A stretch of DNA of 64,000 nucleotides from positions 137,635 through 201,634 of the forward strand of contig JAKVLB010000002.1 in NCBI GenBank assembly GCA_022484595.1. The letters are read 5' to 3'. The stretch comes from Mageeibacillus sp. (lineage in GTDB: Bacteria; Bacillota; Clostridia; Saccharofermentanales; Saccharofermentanaceae). The first letter of the stretch is position 1. The number at the start of each line of letters is the position of its first letter. A program made the position numbers and the translations under genes. Positions 11,768 through 28,144 of this stretch are shown here, piece by piece. A model generated the notes under the pieces. The model was not told the origin of the DNA. It did not search any database and was given only the letters and a program-made list of their open reading frames with translations.

Positions 11768-13261
11768 ATGATCGGCAATCTGATTGATGAACTTGTAAGA
11801 TACGGAATTAAATCCGGAATAACCGACGAAGAAGACAGGATTTACTCGACCAACACTTTGCTGGCGATACTCGGCGTGTCTGACTTTGAACTTGAGCAGG
11901 GCGGCAGCATTCCGGAATCGCGCAGCCTGTCTTCAATTCTGGAGGACATAACAGATTACGCAATCAGCAGCGGCATAACCGAGGATACTTCCGCGTCGAG
12001 AGACCTGTTCGATACTAAGCTTATGGGAGCACTCACGCCTCCGCCGTCTGTTGTCCGCGCTGAATTCGCTGCAAAGATGCGCATATCGCCGAAACTTGCA
12101 ACAGATTGGTACTACTCGTTCTCGCAGGCTACAAACTATATACGTACAGACCGCATCGCCCGTGATGTCAGATGGAAAGCCGATACGGATTACGGAGATA
12201 TTGATATTACAATCAATCTGTCGAAACCTGAGAAGGATCCGCGAGACATCGCAAGAGCCGGACAGACAAAATCCTCCGGATATCCTGCCTGTCTCCTGTG
12301 CAAAGAGAACGAGGGATATGCCGGAACTCTTTGTCATCCTGCAAGGCAGAATCATCGTGTAATACCGATCAGACTCGGCGGAGAAGAGTATTTTCTGCAG
12401 TATTCTCCGTATGTATACTACAACGAGCACTGCATCATCTTCAATTCAAAACATACACCGATGCTTATAGACCGCCGGACATTCGATAAACTTTTAGACT
12501 TTGTATGCCTGTTCCCGCATTACACCGCAGGCTCAAATGCTGATCTTCCGATAGTCGGGGGATCAATTCTATCGCACGATCATTTCCAGGGAGGGTGCTA
12601 CGAATTTGCCATGGCGAGAGCGCCTTTTGAGAAGATGATTGTTTTCGACGGCTTCGAAAACGTCACGGCAGGAATCGTCAGGTGGCCACTGTCAGTTATC
12701 AGGCTGCAGGGTACGGACCGTGCGGAGATTTCCGGGCTGTCGGACAAAATTCTCAACGCCTGGCGCGGCTATACCGACGAGGAATCGTTCATTCTGGTAG
12801 AAACCGACGGAATCCGACACAATACCATCACCCCGATTGCAAGACGGCGAAACGGGCTGTACGAGATGGATCTTGTTCTGCGAAACAACATCACTACGGA
12901 AGAATGCCCGCTCGGCTACTATCATCCGCATCCGGAGTATCATCACATCAAGAAGGAAAATATCGGGCTTATTGAAGTGATGGGACTTGCCGTACTTCCC
13001 GCCCGCCTCAAGACCGAAATGCAGCAGCTGTCGGCTGCAATACTCGCCGGAAAAGACATAAGATCAATTCCGGAAATTGCAAAGCACGCAGATTGGGCAG
13101 AGAAATTTCTTCCGGGGTATGAAGTTCGTGAAGACAATATCGACAGCATACTAAAAAAAGAAATCGGCATAGTTTTCGCGCACGTCCTGGAATGTTCAGG
13201 CGTTTACAAATGTACAACTGAGGGACGCGCGGGCTTTATGAGATTTATAGAAAGCGTCTGA
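11768..13261 (+). CDS. galT: Galactose-1-phosphate uridylyltransferase, Firmicute (class 2) type
   Basis: A 497-residue protein of the larger GalT class found in Gram-positive bacteria. It exchanges UMP between UDP-glucose and galactose 1-phosphate in the Leloir pathway. The histidine triad-like active site is visible as ILSHDHFQGG near residue 275, and a CxxC pair (CLLCKENEG) lies near 177. The ribosome site TGAGGT overlaps the galK stop, so the two genes are co-translated. No galE is present, so UDP-galactose epimerisation must be encoded elsewhere. Confidence 0.95.
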   Translation: MIGNLIDELVRYGIKSGITDEEDRIYSTNTLLAILGVSDFELEQGGSIPESRSLSSILEDITDYAISSGITEDTSASRDLFDTKLMGALTPPPSVVRAEFAAKMRISPKLATDWYYSFSQATNYIRTDRIARDVRWKADTDYGDIDITINLSKPEKDPRDIARAGQTKSSGYPACLLCKENEGYAGTLCHPARQNHRVIPIRLGGEEYFLQYSPYVYYNEHCIIFNSKHTPMLIDRRTFDKLLDFVCLFPHYTAGSNADLPIVGGSILSHDHFQGGCYEFAMARAPFEKMIVFDGFENVTAGIVRWPLSVIRLQGTDRAEISGLSDKILNAWRGYTDEESFILVETDGIRHNTITPIARRRNGLYEMDLVLRNNITTEECPLGYYHPHPEYHHIKKENIGLIEVMGLAVLPARLKTEMQQLSAAILAGKDIRSIPEIAKHADWAEKFLPGYEVREDNIDSILKKEIGIVFAHVLECSGVYKCTTEGRAGFMRFIESV

Positions 13262-21220: not shown

Positions 21221-24200
21221 TTAAATCTCCATCGTTCCTTCAAATACGCGATCGCAGTTTCCTGTCATACTGACAGCATCGTCAGTGTAATTGACTATCA
21301 GATCTCCGCCCTTGAGAATTACCCTGATGTCTTCTCCCTTGCGGCAATGTCCGTTTATGCATGCCGCCACAACAGATGCGCAGGCGCCTGTTCCACATGC
21401 CATTGTCTCTCCTGATCCTCTCTCCCAGACTCTCATCTTTAGAGTGTGATCATCGATGACCTTGACAAACTCTGTGTTAACACGCTCGGGGAAAAGCTCC
21501 GAAGCATACTCAAAGCGCGGTCCGATTTTCTCGAGATCCATCACGTCAACCAGCTCAGAGAATACCACCGCGTGTGGATTCCCCATGGAAACGCATGTGA
21601 TGTTATATTCCTCGCCGTCAATATTCACAGGCTTGTTGACAACCGAATCACCCTCAATATTTACGGGAATCAGTGACGGTTCAAGAACAGCCTTGCCCAT
21701 ATCTACTTTGACTCTCTTGACCACGCCATCGGCTGTCATCATCTCGAGCTTCTTTATGCCGGACTTTGTCTCGATTGTCATGTGCTTCTTCTTGTGACCG
21801 GCAATATCATACATATACTTGCCGACACAGCGGATGGCATTTCCGCACATCATTCCTTCCGAGCCGTCGAGATTATACATAATCATACGCGCATCAGCCA
21901 CCTTGGAAGGCGCAATAAGCACAATGCCGTCACCGCCGACACCGAAATGCCTGTCGGACATGAATACCGATAATGACTCCGGTGAAGACACCATTTTTTC
22001 AAGACAATCTATATAAATGTAGTCGTTGCCCGCGCCCTGCATCTTAATAAAATCAATCTTCTTGCGCTTCTCACGCATATTGTTGATATCGACAAGCTCG
22101 GTATTGATCTCACTGTAACGGCTCATGAGTGAATCTGCGAGAGCATCCGCCGTATCAACTGCTGTAAGGCAAGGAATTCCAAGCATTACGGCGCGCCTGC
22201 GAAGCTTTACGGAATCACGTGCCGGCAGTCTGCCCTTGGCTGAAGTTGAAATTATGTAATTAACCTTGCCGCTCTCAAGAAGCGTCATGGTGTTGTTGTC
22301 GTCAGATTCATGAATCTTCGAGACCACTTTTACATCAAGTCCGGCCTGTGAGAGTGCTGTCGCGGTACCTGCCGTAGCATAGAGCTTAAAGCCCAGGGTA
22401 TCGAACTTTTTGGCAATCTCAACAATCTCCGGTTTGTCGGAATCTCTTACCGTTACAAAGACTCCGCCCTTCTTATACATCTTGTAGCCGGCTGCCACAA
22501 GTCCCTTGTAGAGCGCCTCGGACAGATTGCGGCCTACACCCAGAACCTCTCCGGTAGATTTCATCTCAGGTCCCAGCTGCGTATCGACATCTGTAAGTTT
22601 TTCGAAAGAGAACACAGGAACCTTGACTGCCGTGTATGGCGACTGGCGGTAGAAGCCGGTGCCGTAATCCATATCGGCGAGTTTGCGGCCCAGGCTGACT
22701 TCTATCGCGACGTCTACCATCGGTATGCCGGTAACTTTGCTCATATAAGGTACAGTTCTCGAAGCGCGCGGATTGACTTCAATTACATAGATTTTGTTAT
22801 CTTTCACAATGTACTGAATATTTACAATACCGGTTGAATTGAGCCCGTCGCAAAGAGCTATTGTCGTATCGGCAAGTCTTCTGTACATATCATCATAAAT
22901 ATGCTTTGCAGGATACATTGCGATTGAGTCTCCGGAATGGATTCCGGCTCTCTCAATATGCTCCATAAGGCCCGGAATCAACACGTCCTTGCCGTCGTAG
23001 ATAGCGTCAACTTCAATCTCTCTGCCCTGGATATACTTGTCTATCAGCACCGGGTTCTCTATTCCCTGCGCAAGAATGATTCTCATGTACTCGTTGACAT
23101 CCGCATCATTGAAGGCGATTATCATGTTCTGACCGCCAAGCACATACGAAGGTCTGAGCAGCACAGGATATTCGAGCGCATTTGCAGCCTTGAGCGCCTC
23201 CTCAAGAGTAAGTACGGAGAAGCCCTTAGGTCTGGCAATATTCAGACGCTCGAGAAGGTCATCGAACCTCTCTCTGTCCTCCGCCATATCTATTGAATCC
23301 GCAGATGTTCCTATAATATTGACATTGTTCTTCGCAAGTGTCTTTGTGAGCTTAATCGCCGTCTGTCCGCCGAATGCAACAACAACGCCGTAAGGCTTCT
23401 CCTGGTGAACAATGTTCATGACATCTTCAGGTGTCAGCGGTTCGAAATAAAGTCTGTCGCCTGTATCAAAGTCCGTGGATACAGTCTCAGGGTTATTGTT
23501 GACTATTACCACCCTGAATCCGAGCGAACGAAGCGCGTGTACACAGTGAACCGCGGCATAGTCGAACTCAATGCCCTGACCGATTCTGATAGGACCTGAG
23601 CCGAAAACCATAATCGTCTTCTTGTCCTTGTCCCCTGCCTGTTCGAAATCAGCCTCATTCTCTCCGCCTGATTTGTCAGAGTTGTATGTGGCATAGAAAT
23701 ACGGCGTCCTTGCGGCAAACTCTCCGGCACAGGTATCAACCATCTTGAATGTAGGCTCAAGCTTGTATTCAGGTGCCGTGCCGCAGATGCGCGTCAGTGC
23801 CTTGTCGGTAAACCCGAGTTTCTTGGCATGGAAATACTCTTCCTCAGTTAAGGTTCTGCCTGAACACTGATCTTCGAAATCAAGAAGATTTTTAATTTTC
23901 GAGAGGAACCACAGATCGATCCTGGTCTCCTCGTGAATCTTCTCTATGGTGACGCCGCGTCTGATTGCCTCTGACACATAGAAGATTCTCTCATCGGTGA
24001 CCTTGACGCAGCCGGTCATAATGTCCTCGTCGCTCACCTGCGCGAGCTTCGGAAGACGAAGTGTATCAACCGATATCTCCGCTCCCCTTACTGCCTTCAT
24101 GAGAGCACTCTCGAACGAATCCGAGATTGCCATAACTTCGCCGGTCGCCTTCATCTGTGTACCGAGATTGCGCTTTGCATAAACAAACTTGTCGAACGGC

Positions 24201-25279
24201 CACTTCGGGAACTTAACCGCCACATAGTCCAAAGCAGGCTCAAATGCCGCGTAGGTATACCCTGTGACACTGTTGACAATCTCATCAAGCCTGTAGCCCA
24301 GCGCAATCTTTGTAGCAACTTTGGCTATAGGATATCCTGTCGCTTTTGAAGCAAGCGCAGAAGACCTCGACACACGGGGGTTAACTTCGATTACGGCATA
24401 TTCAAATGAATCAGGATTGAGCGCAAACTGACAGTTGCATCCGCCTTCAACGCCTAACGCCTCTATAATATTCAGAGAAGCTGTTCTGAGCATCTGATAC
24501 TCTTTATCGGAAAGGGTGACGGCAGGGGCGATAACAATTGAATCACCGGTGTGAACGCCTACAGGATCAAGGTTCTCCATCGAGCAGACCGTGATGACGT
24601 TTCCGTCTTTATCTCTTACTACCTCAAATTCAATCTCTTTCCATCCGGCAATGCCGCGTTCAACAAGAATCTGGGTAATAGGTGAAAGGGCAAGACCGTT
24701 CCTGGCAATCTCGTGAAGCTCCTCCTTGTCAGCAGCTATTCCTCCGCCGGATCCGCCCAAAGTAAATGCCGGTCTGACAATTACCGGGTAACCGATGTAA
24801 TCTGCAAATTCAAGTGCGCTGTCCAGATCTGTTACTACCTTTGACGGTATGCACGGCTGACCGATGGATTCCATCGTGTCTTTGAAAATCTGTCTGTCCT
24901 CAGCCTTGTCGATACATTCCGGAGATGATCCCAGAAGCTTGACATGATGCTGTTCAAGGAAGCCTTCCTTGGCGAGCTGCATGCAGAGTGTAAGCGCCGT
25001 CTGTCCACCGAGACCCGACAAAATCGAGTCAGGTCGTTCTGTCTCAATAATTCTCTTAACCGTCGTAAGTGTGAGCGGCTCGATGTAAATCTTATCCGCC
25101 ATCGACTTATCGGTCATAATTGTAGCAGGATTTGAATTGACAAGAACAATCTCAATTCCGTCTTCTCTAAGCGCACGGCAGGCCTGTGTCCCCGCATAGT
25201 CGAACTCGGCTGCCTGACCAATTACAATCGGGCCTGAACCTATTACCAGTACTTTTCTAATTTTCTTGTCCAGTGGCAT
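21221..25279 (-). CDS. carB-dapF: Carbamoyl-phosphate synthase large subunit fused to diaminopimelate epimerase
   Basis: One 1352-codon frame with no stop. Residues 1-1067 are a full-length CarB: two ATP-grasp halves (starting VLVIGSGPIVIGQA, and GSGPIRIGQG near 560) and the C-terminal MGS-like allosteric domain (GGVFVTVRDSDKPE). Residues 1068-1352 are a full-length DapF, beginning at an in-frame ATG (22078) with FIKMQGAGNDY; both catalytic cysteines are present (MCGNAIRC and ACGTGACAS). There is no linker and no ribosome site before the internal ATG, so two separate products are not evident. CarB makes carbamoyl phosphate for pyrimidines and arginine; DapF makes meso-diaminopimelate for peptidoglycan and lysine. 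A natural fusion or a lost stop codon (mutation or assembly error) are the choices. Confidence 0.88.
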   Translation of the reverse strand: MPLDKKIRKVLVIGSGPIVIGQAAEFDYAGTQACRALREDGIEIVLVNSNPATIMTDKSMADKIYIEPLTLTTVKRIIETERPDSILSGLGGQTALTLCMQLAKEGFLEQHHVKLLGSSPECIDKAEDRQIFKDTMESIGQPCIPSKVVTDLDSALEFADYIGYPVIVRPAFTLGGSGGGIAADKEELHEIARNGLALSPITQILVERGIAGWKEIEFEVVRDKDGNVITVCSMENLDPVGVHTGDSIVIAPAVTLSDKEYQMLRTASLNIIEALGVEGGCNCQFALNPDSFEYAVIEVNPRVSRSSALASKATGYPIAKVATKIALGYRLDEIVNSVTGYTYAAFEPALDYVAVKFPKWPFDKFVYAKRNLGTQMKATGEVMAISDSFESALMKAVRGAEISVDTLRLPKLAQVSDEDIMTGCVKVTDERIFYVSEAIRRGVTIEKIHEETRIDLWFLSKIKNLLDFEDQCSGRTLTEEEYFHAKKLGFTDKALTRICGTAPEYKLEPTFKMVDTCAGEFAARTPYFYATYNSDKSGGENEADFEQAGDKDKKTIMVFGSGPIRIGQGIEFDYAAVHCVHALRSLGFRVVIVNNNPETVSTDFDTGDRLYFEPLTPEDVMNIVHQEKPYGVVVAFGGQTAIKLTKTLAKNNVNIIGTSADSIDMAEDRERFDDLLERLNIARPKGFSVLTLEEALKAANALEYPVLLRPSYVLGGQNMIIAFNDADVNEYMRIILAQGIENPVLIDKYIQGREIEVDAIYDGKDVLIPGLMEHIERAGIHSGDSIAMYPAKHIYDDMYRRLADTTIALCDGLNSTGIVNIQYIVKDNKIYVIEVNPRASRTVPYMSKVTGIPMVDVAIEVSLGRKLADMDYGTGFYRQSPYTAVKVPVFSFEKLTDVDTQLGPEMKSTGEVLGVGRNLSEALYKGLVAAGYKMYKKGGVFVTVRDSDKPEIVEIAKKFDTLGFKLYATAGTATALSQAGLDVKVVSKIHESDDNNTMTLLESGKVNYIISTSAKGRLPARDSVKLRRRAVMLGIPCLTAVDTADALADSLMSRYSEINTELVDINNMREKRKKIDFIKMQGAGNDYIYIDCLEKMVSSPESLSVFMSDRHFGVGGDGIVLIAPSKVADARMIMYNLDGSEGMMCGNAIRCVGKYMYDIAGHKKKHMTIETKSGIKKLEMMTADGVVKRVKVDMGKAVLEPSLIPVNIEGDSVVNKPVNIDGEEYNITCVSMGNPHAVVFSELVDVMDLEKIGPRFEYASELFPERVNTEFVKVIDDHTLKMRVWERGSGETMACGTGACASVVAACINGHCRKGEDIRVILKGGDLIVNYTDDAVSMTGNCDRVFEGTMEI

Positions 25280-25290
25280 TGCTGTTCACC

Positions 25291-26358
25291 TCAACTTTCC
25301 ATCATGTTTATAAATTCGTCGAAAAGGAAGTCCGTATCCTGCGGTCCGCCGCAGGCTTCCGGGTGGAACTGCACGGAGAACGCCGCTTCGTTCAGATATT
25401 TAAGTCCCTCATTCGTTCCGTCATTACCGTTAACGAAGAATTCCTTCGCCTGCGCGCTGTCTATACTTTCCTTGACAACCGCGTAACCGTGGTTCTGAGA
25501 AGAAATATAAACTCTTCCTGTCTCAAGGTTCTTAACGGGGTGATTGGCACCTCTGTGCCCGTACTTCAGCTTGGTTGTCTCAAAACCGTGCGACAATGCC
25601 AGAATCTGATGTCCGAGACAGATGCCCATCGTCGGGATATTGAACGCACGCAGCTCCTGCAATGTCTTTATTGCCGCAACGTTATCGGTAGGATCTCCAG
25701 GACCGTTGGACAGGAAAAGTCCGTCCGGATCAATTTCTCTTACCTTCGCGGCAGACGTATCGGCCGGAACAAGGAAAACCTCGCATCCGCGCTTAAGAAG
25801 TGATCTTACGATATTCTTCTTTGTACCGTAGTCAAACATGACAACCTTGAACTTTACTTCTGTCTCAGGCTTGTAGTCGACAATTTCCTTAACGGTAACG
25901 TCTTCTACGGGGTTAACAATTCTGTATGCCCTGATGGCTTCAGGAGTGAACTCATCCACGGAATCGCAGATGGCACCGTTCATCGTTCCGTGTTCTCTCA
26001 GAACCTTTGTCAGCGCACGGGTGTCGATACCTTTGATCCCGGGTATTCCCTGCTTCTTAAGGAATGTGTCGATATCTGTCTCACAGCGAAAATTTGACGG
26101 GAAGCTGCAGGCTTCCCTTACGATGTAACCCGATACCGAAACAGTCTCACCTTCCATATCAGAAGTGATAATTCCGTAGTTTCCTATGAGCGGGAAAGTC
26201 TGAACGACCGACTGGCCTTTGTAACTTGCGTCTGTCAGTGTCTCAATGTATGCCGTCATGGAAGTCGTAAATACAATCTCAGATATTACGCTTCCTCCCG
26301 CGCCAAAGGCCTCGCCCTCATATACATTGCCGTTCTCAAGCACCAGGTATTTCTTCAT
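25291..26358 (-). CDS. carA: Carbamoyl-phosphate synthase small subunit
   Basis: A 355-residue CarA, the glutamine amidotransferase subunit that passes ammonia to CarB. The class I glutaminase triad is visible: cysteine in GICLGHQ (about residue 245) and the HPE motif near 335 (FHPEACGGP). The start at 26358 is preferred to an ATG 12 nt upstream because AAGGA lies 11 nt before it. It is 11 nt before carB. A leader peptide gene and a terminator precede it, so expression probably depends on attenuation. Confidence 0.93.
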   Translation of the reverse strand: MKKYLVLENGNVYEGEAFGAGGSVISEIVFTTSMTAYIETLTDASYKGQSVVQTFPLIGNYGIITSDMEGETVSVSGYIVREACSFPSNFRCETDIDTFLKKQGIPGIKGIDTRALTKVLREHGTMNGAICDSVDEFTPEAIRAYRIVNPVEDVTVKEIVDYKPETEVKFKVVMFDYGTKKNIVRSLLKRGCEVFLVPADTSAAKVREIDPDGLFLSNGPGDPTDNVAAIKTLQELRAFNIPTMGICLGHQILALSHGFETTKLKYGHRGANHPVKNLETGRVYISSQNHGYAVVKESIDSAQAKEFFVNGNDGTNEGLKYLNEAAFSVQFHPEACGGPQDTDFLFDEFINMMES

Positions 26359-26380
26359 AAAGCCACACATCCTTTCATAT

Positions 26381-26412
26381 AAAAAAGGCTTTTTTCTTAA
26401 ATGAAAAAAGCC
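26381..26412 (-). terminator. Intrinsic terminator in the carA leader (attenuator)
   Basis: On the minus strand GGCTTTTTTC pairs perfectly with GAAAAAAGCC around a 6-nt loop, followed by TTTTTT. It lies 23 nt before carA and after the promoter. The leader-peptide stop codon falls in the loop, so a ribosome at the end of that frame would prevent the stem from forming. Confidence 0.88.
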
Positions 26413-26510
26413 GGTAAATCAGAAACTGAAACGATTGAGCCGTCGAGCGGTACGAGCACCGCTTCTATCTGAAATTTACACTTGTCGCATTCCATACAAC
26501 AGCTTCTCAT
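26397..26510 (-). CDS. Cysteine-rich leader peptide of the carAB operon
   Basis: A 37-codon frame with a strong ribosome site (GAGGAGG, 6 nt spacing). The N-terminal part has four cysteines (SCCMECDKC) and the end reads DLPAFFI. The TAA stop lies inside the loop of the carA terminator. The RNA just before and within the stem is rich in U. This is the layout of the Escherichia coli pyrBI attenuator, where slow polymerase at low UTP lets the ribosome keep up and block termination. Alternatively the cysteine cluster may make the peptide a functional metal-binding protein. Function is inferred. Confidence 0.7.
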   Translation of the reverse strand: MRSCCMECDKCKFQIEAVLVPLDGSIVSVSDLPAFFI

Positions 26511-26539
26511 TTCAAACCTCCTCAATTCGCATTTGTACA

Positions 26540-26568
26540 AGGGTATCACAAACAGAAAGCGTTTTGAA
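26540..26568 (-). promoter_or_regulatory. Promoter of the carAB operon
   Basis: Minus strand TTCAAA (26563-26568), 17-bp spacer ending TGA, then TACCCT (26540-26545), an extended -10 form. It lies 30 nt upstream of the leader peptide start. Confidence 0.5.
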
Positions 26569-26577
26569 GTTCTTGTT

Positions 26578-26628
26578 TTTTACAAATTTCACTTTAATTA
26601 CATTTATATTAAGGTGCAGTTTGTAAAA
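26578..26628. other. Long AT-rich inverted repeat between thrC and the carA leader
   Basis: TTTTACAAA (26578-26586) pairs with TTTGTAAAA (26620-26628), with a second inner set of complementary bases (ATTTCACTTTAAT against ATTAAGGTGCAGT region, one mismatch). It follows the thrC stop by 11 nt. There is no T tract, so it is either a rho-independent-like 3' end without U run or an operator upstream of the carA promoter. Confidence 0.5.
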
Positions 26629-26638
26629 TACGGATATA

Positions 26639-28144
26639 TCACCCGATTAGTATAGTGCTGACCTCATCCTTCATGTGTTCTTTCTCGATGACATCCTTGT
26701 GCAGAATCTCCTTCTTGTCCAGATCCTTGATGCCTTCAGGAATAGCAAGACCGCTCTCGGCAGAAAGTTCTTCTATCACATTCTCTATCGAACGGCCTGA
26801 AGAAAATCCCGATCCGCGAAGCGAATCCATCACTGCCGGCGCAAACTTGAACGGAGATGCAGTTGACGCGAATACAGTCTTGCACTCATCGTTTGATCTC
26901 TGGTGATATCTTGAATAGATATTGAAGCCTACGGCAGTGTGGGTATCAATCACATTATCAGTCCTGTCATAGACATCCAGTATCGTCTTCGCGACACCGG
27001 TCTCGTCAGCGAAGCCTCCGACGAAATTCCTCTGGAGAGTCTTAAGCGTCTTGGAATCAACACTGTACGAGCCAACTTCCGACAGGCTCTTCATCCACGT
27101 TCTCACCGCCGAGCTGTCGCCCCCGGTAACTTCAAAAAGCAATCTCTCAAGGTTGCTCGAAATAAGAATATCCATCGATGGCGAAGTCGTCTTAAAGAAT
27201 TCGCGCTTGCGGTCATATGTGCCTGTAGAGAAAAAGTCACACAGAACTTTATTTCGGTTGGAAGCACATATAAGCCTGCGGACCGGGATACCCATCTGCT
27301 TTGCAAACCATGCGGCAAGAATATTTCCGAAGTTGCCGGTAGGAACTACTATGTTGATCTCCTCGCCGTCCTCAATCTTCTCGGTACGGGCAAGCTCGAC
27401 GTAGGAATACACGTAATATGCAATCTGCGGCACAAGGCGTCCCCAGTTTATCGAGTTTGCCGATGACAGCATAAATCCGTTGTCATCAAGCTTCTTTGCA
27501 AAATCCTTATCTGCGAAAATATTCTTCACTCCGGTCTGCGCATCATCAAAGCATCCGTTAACCGCTACAACATGGGTATTAGAACCGGTGGTCGTAATCA
27601 TCTGAAGCTTCTGTGCCTCCGACACGCCGCCCGTCGGATAGAAAACAATTATCTCTGTGCCGGGAAGATCCTTGAATCCTTCAAGCGCAGCCTTGCCCGT
27701 GTCACCTGAAGTAGCAGTAAGTATACATATCTTCCTGTTAATTCCGGTTTTGGCAATGGAAGCGGTCATCAGATGCGGAAGCAGCTGAAGCGCGACATCC
27801 TTGAACGCACACGTCGGTCCGTGCCAAAGCTCAAGAATATATTCTCTGTCATTGTATGAATTCAGCTGAACAAGCGGAACGGGGTTCTCTCCCCATTTCT
27901 CCTCGCTGTATGCCTGACGTGTATAATCAATAAGCTCTTCTTCCGTGAAATCCGTAAGATACTTCGACAGAACCCGGGCAGATATCTCATAGAACTGCAT
28001 ATTCTTCATCTCTGCAAGCTCGTCTTTTGTTATTGCGGGAATTGAATCCGGCACGAACAGACCGCCGTCGGGCGCAATTCCGGTGATAATAGCTTCAGCT
28101 GAAGTGTACTTCCTGTCATATCCTCTTGTACTTACATAATTCAT
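26639..28144 (-). CDS. thrC: Threonine synthase
   Basis: A 501-residue PLP enzyme converting O-phosphohomoserine to threonine. It opens with YVSTRG, has the PLP lysine in GPTCAFKDVAL (about residue 113) and the phosphate-binding ATSGDTGKAAL loop near 150. The length suits the long ThrC class. GGAGG lies 6 nt before the start. It is the last gene of the operon that begins at dgt, 1 nt after the preceding gene. Confidence 0.95.
   Translation of the reverse strand: MNYVSTRGYDRKYTSAEAIITGIAPDGGLFVPDSIPAITKDELAEMKNMQFYEISARVLSKYLTDFTEEELIDYTRQAYSEEKWGENPVPLVQLNSYNDREYILELWHGPTCAFKDVALQLLPHLMTASIAKTGINRKICILTATSGDTGKAALEGFKDLPGTEIIVFYPTGGVSEAQKLQMITTTGSNTHVVAVNGCFDDAQTGVKNIFADKDFAKKLDDNGFMLSSANSINWGRLVPQIAYYVYSYVELARTEKIEDGEEINIVVPTGNFGNILAAWFAKQMGIPVRRLICASNRNKVLCDFFSTGTYDRKREFFKTTSPSMDILISSNLERLLFEVTGGDSSAVRTWMKSLSEVGSYSVDSKTLKTLQRNFVGGFADETGVAKTILDVYDRTDNVIDTHTAVGFNIYSRYHQRSNDECKTVFASTASPFKFAPAVMDSLRGSGFSSGRSIENVIEELSAESGLAIPEGIKDLDKKEILHKDVIEKEHMKDEVSTILIG

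Follow-up and report, generated by a model that had tools for sequence, protein, structure and literature searches.

A probable pyrBI-like, translation-gated attenuator ahead of carA in a Mageeibacillus sp. and its relatives

Control of pyrimidine genes by a ribosome-gated attenuator is known from textbooks as a device of enterobacteria, and it requires tight transcription-translation coupling. In Bacillota, pyrimidine genes are usually controlled by PyrR attenuation, where a conditional terminator is used. In the window, i.e. the whole stretch of 64,000 nucleotides analysed here, carA is preceded by a short leader frame ending within an intrinsic terminator, in a rumen-type clostridium whose genome encodes PyrR. 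The question raised by this locus is which type of control acts on carA. From sequence comparison and from analogy with E. coli we consider it probable that the leader is a translation-gated transcription attenuator for carA-carB, pyrBI-like, probably UTP-sensing and independent of the peptide encoded, and that thrC takes the part of the leader in many relatives.

Leader anatomy and occurrence in the genus

The original prediction described a 37-codon frame with a strong ribosome site and a stop codon in the loop of a perfect terminator. All of these are present at the predicted coordinates, on the minus strand (Table 1), and the leader anatomy before carA is confirmed as real. The predicted likeness to the architecture of pyrBI was borne out as well, i.e. 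a Shine-Dalgarno-led leader frame before a pyrimidine-pathway gene, together with a terminator in reach of the leader ribosome.

Table 1. Features at the carA locus, given as positions in the window
Feature	Position	Strand	Details	Basis
carB-dapF	21221..25279	-	carB fused in frame to a diaminopimelate epimerase domain	Pfam
carA	25291..26358	-	start ATG 26358; further in-frame ATG at 26370	PF00988 match and relatives
Intrinsic terminator (putative attenuator)	26381..26412	-	stem-loop 26412-26387, U-tract 26386-26381	
Leader frame	26397..26510	-	37 codons; ATG 26510, TAA 26399-26397 in terminator loop	
Candidate pause hairpin	26446..26463	-	AGCGGTGCTCGTACCGCT, upstream of terminator; pause role putative	whole-leader predicted fold
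Shine-Dalgarno of leader frame	26517..26523	-	GAGGAGG	sequence
Probable promoter	26540..26568	-	-35-like TTCAAA 26568-26563, 17-nt spacer, -10 region TGTGATACCCT 26550-26540	assigned by eye
thrC (threonine synthase)	26639..28144	-	upstream neighbour of the carA leader	Pfam

The terminator has a perfect 10-bp stem and a 6-nt loop (GGCTTTTTTC ATTTAA GAAAAAAGCC, followed by six T), with a run of six U within the 5' arm. The leader frame encodes MRSCCMECDKCKFQIEAVLVPLDGSIVSVSDLPAFFI, and its stop ends 16 nt past the start of the stem, which is inside the loop. From the end of the stem to carA the distance is 28 nt. Compared with dinucleotide shuffles, 26371-26560 has the better predicted fold (z -2.62), equalled by 1 of 200 shuffles. 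Hairpins upstream of the terminator vary between leaders, and the candidate pause hairpin of the window pairs otherwise when a shorter stretch is folded. The putative leader promoter gave zero matches in a sigma-70 consensus scan; its TGTGATAYCCTTKTRCAAA is common to the window and two relatives (L067, L092).

In 19 of 21 DapF-bearing genomes (24 searched) DapF lies in a long frame of 1233-1411 codons. The carB-dapF fusion looks genus-wide, as read in the other genomes from the length of the DapF frame.

A search of 85 genomes of the genus located carA in 76; the named relatives of the window are Saccharofermentans and rumen 'Ruminococcaceae' genomes. The upstream DNA was compared at 74 loci including the window; outside this set are two loci at contig edges (G026, G043) and an additional, partial match in G025, and L084 has only 50 nt of upstream DNA. 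The loci were grouped by script plus eye, thrC being recognised through a shared C-terminal motif, and the hairpins of L100, L104, L111, L114, L136 and some of L132, L133 and L135 were classed by eye.

A leader frame stands before the terminator at 6 of the 74 loci, and the end of thrC lies just upstream of it, with no leader frame, at 29. At L084 the terminator is visible and the upstream sequence is cut off. Seven loci have a promoter followed directly by a terminator with no frame, and another seven a diverged CarA with a different 5' hairpin. The remaining 24 carry carA without a close terminator; the carA attenuator is thus not universal in the genus. Within the 5' arm of the stem, GGC near the base followed by a run of 4-6 U and a C (GGC-U4..6-C) occurs in 35/35 loci, so that the same type of terminator is found behind two kinds of frame, as the attenuator reading would have it. 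The U-tract is poor in the terminators of L100 and L104. Stems placed by script end 21-28 nt before carA, and this gap holds the U-tract and the carA Shine-Dalgarno sequence with no visible room for a promoter; expression of carA therefore requires read-through.

A CarA tree was made of 30 loci (L063-L092) and three outgroups, with the thrC-type loci L095-L097, L100, L104 and L105 outside it. Two sister groups are resolved, with the six leader loci on one side and the other 24 (23 with thrC, plus L084) on the other (support 93/73 and 97/96).

Aligning the leaders of related species, as had been proposed with the prediction, gave a divided result: a stop just before or in the same terminator is kept, but the peptide and its cysteine motif are not. 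The closest relatives (CarA identity 82-84%) have leader peptides unrelated to that of the window, and the peptides of the window, the G006/G065/G048 group and the G011/G022 pair are mutually unrelated. The leaders of G006 and G048 differ at nine codons upstream of the first indel, each time with a change of amino acid. In the G048 leader an inserted C is offset by a deleted T, so the same TGA is used as stop. The stop lies 6 nt upstream of the stem in three of the five leader relatives and 8 nt and 5 nt upstream in the other two. In the thrC class the range is 7-15 nt, with 27/29 at 12 nt or less and the others at 13 and 15. The peptide sequence was found to be unconstrained and the frame constrained, the latter judged from one compensating-indel pair together with the stop position. 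As far as these alignments tell, the position of the leader stop is conserved and the peptide is not.

Other types of carA leader were also seen. At L098, L101, L103, L108, L111, L114 and L118 a promoter-like sequence is followed directly by a terminator, GGGGCTTTTCTTT..TGCCCC, before carA; there is no leader frame, yet a U-run stands in the 5' arm of the terminator. Among 16 carA upstream regions from Lachnospiraceae and other clostridia, nine have a -10 region and then ACAATT(T) (L039, L042, L044, L046, L047, L049, L050, L054, and L059 with TCAATTT); of the 11 given by the script, L040 and L041 were discarded as spurious on inspection by eye. This initial transcribed sequence resembles that of E. 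coli pyrBI, ACAATTTG, where reiterative transcription is UTP-sensitive. In a sister genus (g5) 20 carA upstream regions (L256-L275) have a different common hairpin-terminator, ACAAAGRCGTTCGCAtgtgc..GGGGACGTCTTTTTT, with variants. The letters of its internal loop are conserved, and a looser likeness is found in L131-L136. Four of the 20 regions were tested against Rfam with no match at E 0.5; from its sequence we regard this element as a candidate unknown cis-regulatory RNA. An Rfam search of the other carA leader types gave no relevant match.

Proposed mechanism and the nature of the signal

Compared with E. coli pyrBI/pyrL (NC_000913), the window has in common a pyrimidine-pathway gene, a short Shine-Dalgarno-led leader (44 codons in E. 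coli, 37 here), a terminator that the leader ribosome can reach and a hairpin upstream of this terminator. In E. coli that hairpin has a pause function, and the sequence of the pyrL peptide is unimportant. The differences are that the pyrBI terminator lies wholly within pyrL and has a G-C-rich stem, whereas the window has its stop in the loop, an A-U-rich stem with U6 in the 5' arm, carA as the gene and a PyrR-encoding clostridium as the host. The leader is replaced in many relatives by thrC, which codes for an enzyme and has about 500 codons.

Passages in PMC4824070 describe the E. coli tR2 terminator as almost fully repressed when it stands a few bp after a stop codon, and as free beyond about 27-30 nt. 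They also state that removing translation abolishes the repression of a stop-proximal terminator, and that the pyrBI attenuator is a steep version of this ribosome effect, set by pause sites. If the same physics is applied to the carA leader, a ribosome-gated attenuator would follow. A polymerase leaving the leader promoter would encounter the terminator ahead of carA. A close-trailing ribosome at the stop codon would sit over the 5' arm of the stem or over its G-C base, so that the hairpin is blocked and carA is transcribed, while a polymerase running ahead of the ribosome would allow the hairpin to form and transcription would end. The likely signal is UTP: at low UTP the polymerase would slow down on the 4-6 consecutive U of the 5' arm and the trailing ribosome would close up, and at high UTP the polymerase would escape the ribosome and terminate. 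The sequence of the peptide would be irrelevant, the requirement being a translated frame that ends at the terminator. In this scheme the terminator, the frame, the conserved stop position, the non-conserved peptide and the lack of a PyrR-type loop are read from the sequence; ribosome blocking, pausing, transcription-translation coupling and UTP as the signal are inferred. More tentatively, we propose that thrC is the leader in many members of the genus, and that carA is there transcribed only with a close-trailing ribosome at the thrC stop, so that the attenuator, tuned by UTP, would read coupling itself.

A ribosome-gated attenuator might also respond to general translation capacity, or to how much of an amino acid (arginine, cysteine or threonine) is available, by way of the speed at which the leader or thrC is translated. 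Carbamoyl phosphate also supplies arginine synthesis, and a second input to the attenuator is therefore possible; the genome has a carbamoyltransferase (G000:C2:285644, below the pyrB cut-off) that we take as argF, and one CPSase small subunit was found. Each of the six leaders has at least one Cys codon (4, 1, 1, 1, 2 and 2), the Arg codons being 1, 1, 1, 0, 2 and 2, and thrC as the leader would link carA to thrC translation. The six leaders nevertheless have no stretch of Arg, Cys or Thr codons in common and no conserved repeat of regulatory codons. No alternative antiterminator hairpin was seen in single-sequence folds, the leaders being too few and too diverse for covariation. By our reasoning, slow translation of the starvation type favours read-through, whereas a distant ribosome should here favour termination. 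Attenuators of the trp/his type likewise combine a leader frame with a terminator, but the leader of the window has no repeated regulatory codons, no alternative hairpin that we could find, and its stop inside the terminator; a passage in PMC4824070 places the terminators of amino-acid attenuators at distances above 20 bp from the leader gene. We regard a signal other than UTP as unlikely.

Terminator spacing against gene-end and chance controls

It could further be argued that the hairpin simply terminates thrC or a small gene in the ordinary way, and that a fixed, leaky read-through into carA sets the gene ratio. Intrinsic terminators are indeed common after genes. We collected gene-end terminators with a simple finder of our own from 860 kb of the own genome (G000) and 400 kb of a second genome of the genus (G005), 1.26 Mb in total (n=99). 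Only 1/99 lies within 12 nt after the stop codon (medians 31 and 26 nt). With the same script the count was 11/33 in E. coli (298 kb) and 11/37 in Paenibacillus, and in smaller samples 4/11 (first 98 kb of E. coli), 3/8 (pLS20) and 1/11 (R. albus). The set of 99 replaces an earlier one of 30 terminators from 464 kb of the own genome, all of them at least 15 nt from the stop. Short spacing is avoided more strongly in G000 and G005 than in the two larger controls, with carA standing out as the exception. Given the E. coli and Paenibacillus counts, short spacing between stop and terminator is in itself no proof of regulation. It was also dropped as a general index of coupling, as E. coli and Paenibacillus are about equal, and the within-genus contrast alone was used.

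A second difference is in the stem. A run of four or more T in the 5' arm was found in 0/99 gene-end terminators, and the stem pattern GGCTTTTN{6,18}AAAAGCCTTTTT has one occurrence in the own genome assembly, at carA (reversed control 0). The predicted importance of U-rich stretches before the stem has to be revised: the 30 nt upstream of the stem in the window contain 12 U, which is ordinary, as at least 12 were also counted in 19/99 gene-end terminators, and U-richness upstream of the stem was dropped as evidence after this comparison. What is unusual is the U-run inside the 5' arm.

How often a frame would end at the stem by chance was estimated by dinucleotide shuffling. In 394-560 of 4000 shuffles (10-14% per leader) a frame from the same start had its stop near the stem, in the range from 12 nt upstream of where the stem begins to 20 nt within it. 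The six leaders stand for no more than three independent lineages. Taken by itself the frame is weak evidence; the geometry of stop and terminator is strong evidence. Among 27 terminators before genes in the G000 and G005 stretches, an ATG-started, Shine-Dalgarno-led frame ending at the stem occurs only at carA, and one GTG frame in G005 also satisfied the frame-at-stem definition.

An ordinary terminator is quite improbable as an explanation, although the 12-nt counts in E. coli and Paenibacillus speak for it. Against it stand the single terminator that close in the two genus genomes and the 5'-arm U-run, for which no comparable case was seen among the 99. The window moreover has a probable dedicated promoter serving only the leader frame and carA-carB, and the product of the small frame is non-conserved.

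As a side observation, 98/99 gene-end terminators of G000 and G005 lie at least 13 nt from the stop, compared with 26/37 in Paenibacillus, which is unexpected under runaway transcription.

The leader peptide, PyrR and the wider meaning

The prediction had pointed to SCCMECDKC in the leader peptide, with the suggestion that the peptide may sense cysteine or a metal or be functional itself. The motif puts four Cys between residues 4 and 11 of the 37. The suggestion was not borne out, and we hold it to be very improbable, also for a small protein. The motif is missing from all five other leader peptides, the nearest relatives having unrelated ones, and the window peptide has no family match in Pfam or NCBIfam. 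In 58 other genomes of the genus a search gave no match with E <0.05; the weak best matches in eight of them (E 0.05-0.8) were not taken as homologues. With no family and only these weak matches, a conserved small protein was dropped as a candidate.

For the PyrR question, the own genome has the genes pyrR-pyrB-pyrC-pyrF-pyrK-pyrD-pyrE, of which pyrE is named from its position (no Pfam match at E 1e-10), with a PyrR-type loop ahead of pyrR-pyrB as in PyrR attenuation of Bacillota. CCGGYGAG, which we take to be the PyrR loop, stands in a like context in 20/20 pyrR leaders examined, drawn from 67 genomes above the PyrR cut-off; in the own genome the loop is ACCCGGCGAGGT. The pattern TCCNGNGAGG matches the window once, at 12585, where 1.21 matches are expected. 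This pattern fits only 11/20 pyrR leaders and misses that of the own genome, and the search was therefore repeated with CCNGNGAG. The latter has 21 matches across the window (21.7 expected), none within 26359-26659, and is absent from the five other leader-frame carA loci. Rfam reports no PyrR element at the carA leader, and RF00515 has no match above cut-off in 59 genomes, with two below it (G013, G021). Since RF00515 largely misses the pyrR leaders of the genus (L165-L184, loop in 20/20), the silence of Rfam at carA is by itself insufficient. The predicted lack of a PyrR consensus at carA holds, even though the genome encodes PyrR with a loop at the pyr operon. PyrR control of carA was rejected, as the leader has no PyrR-type loop by either pattern; in addition no antiterminator fold was seen. 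A PyrR-dependent attenuator with a diverged site at carA is hardly credible, the PyrR encoded in the genome being its one recommendation, when all 20 pyrR leaders keep CCGGYGAG and the six carA leader-frame loci do not have even CCNGNGAG.

A comparable device at carA was not found in the open-licence literature on carA/PyrR leaders, pyrimidine regulation in Saccharofermentans and uORF attenuation in Firmicutes. The carA motif of Polynucleobacter, as described in parts of PMC8632094, is likewise an element immediately upstream of carA. That motif is an extended imperfect hairpin at the ribosome site in beta-proteobacteria, proposed to act on translation, and has an unrelated structure.

A point against the attenuator reading is that PMC13323073 classes the phylum Bacillota as one with runaway transcription. 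Passages in PMC7858274 place B. subtilis terminators a few nt past stop codons. Runaway transcription leaves ribosomes too far behind, and the carA attenuator would therefore fail in such cells; if it works, the genus must be coupled, at least at carA. A clostridial genus would then have functional coupling, contrary to the assignment of its phylum, and a dedicated leader frame and thrC would have taken each other's place at one attenuator. The geometry of pyrBI in a PyrR-encoding clostridial genus, with a peptide or an enzyme gene as the leader, would offer a natural test of coupling in Bacillota. It would also give a signature for coupling sensors, i.e. a terminator close enough to a stop codon for the ribosome there to reach it, in a genome that otherwise avoids such spacing.
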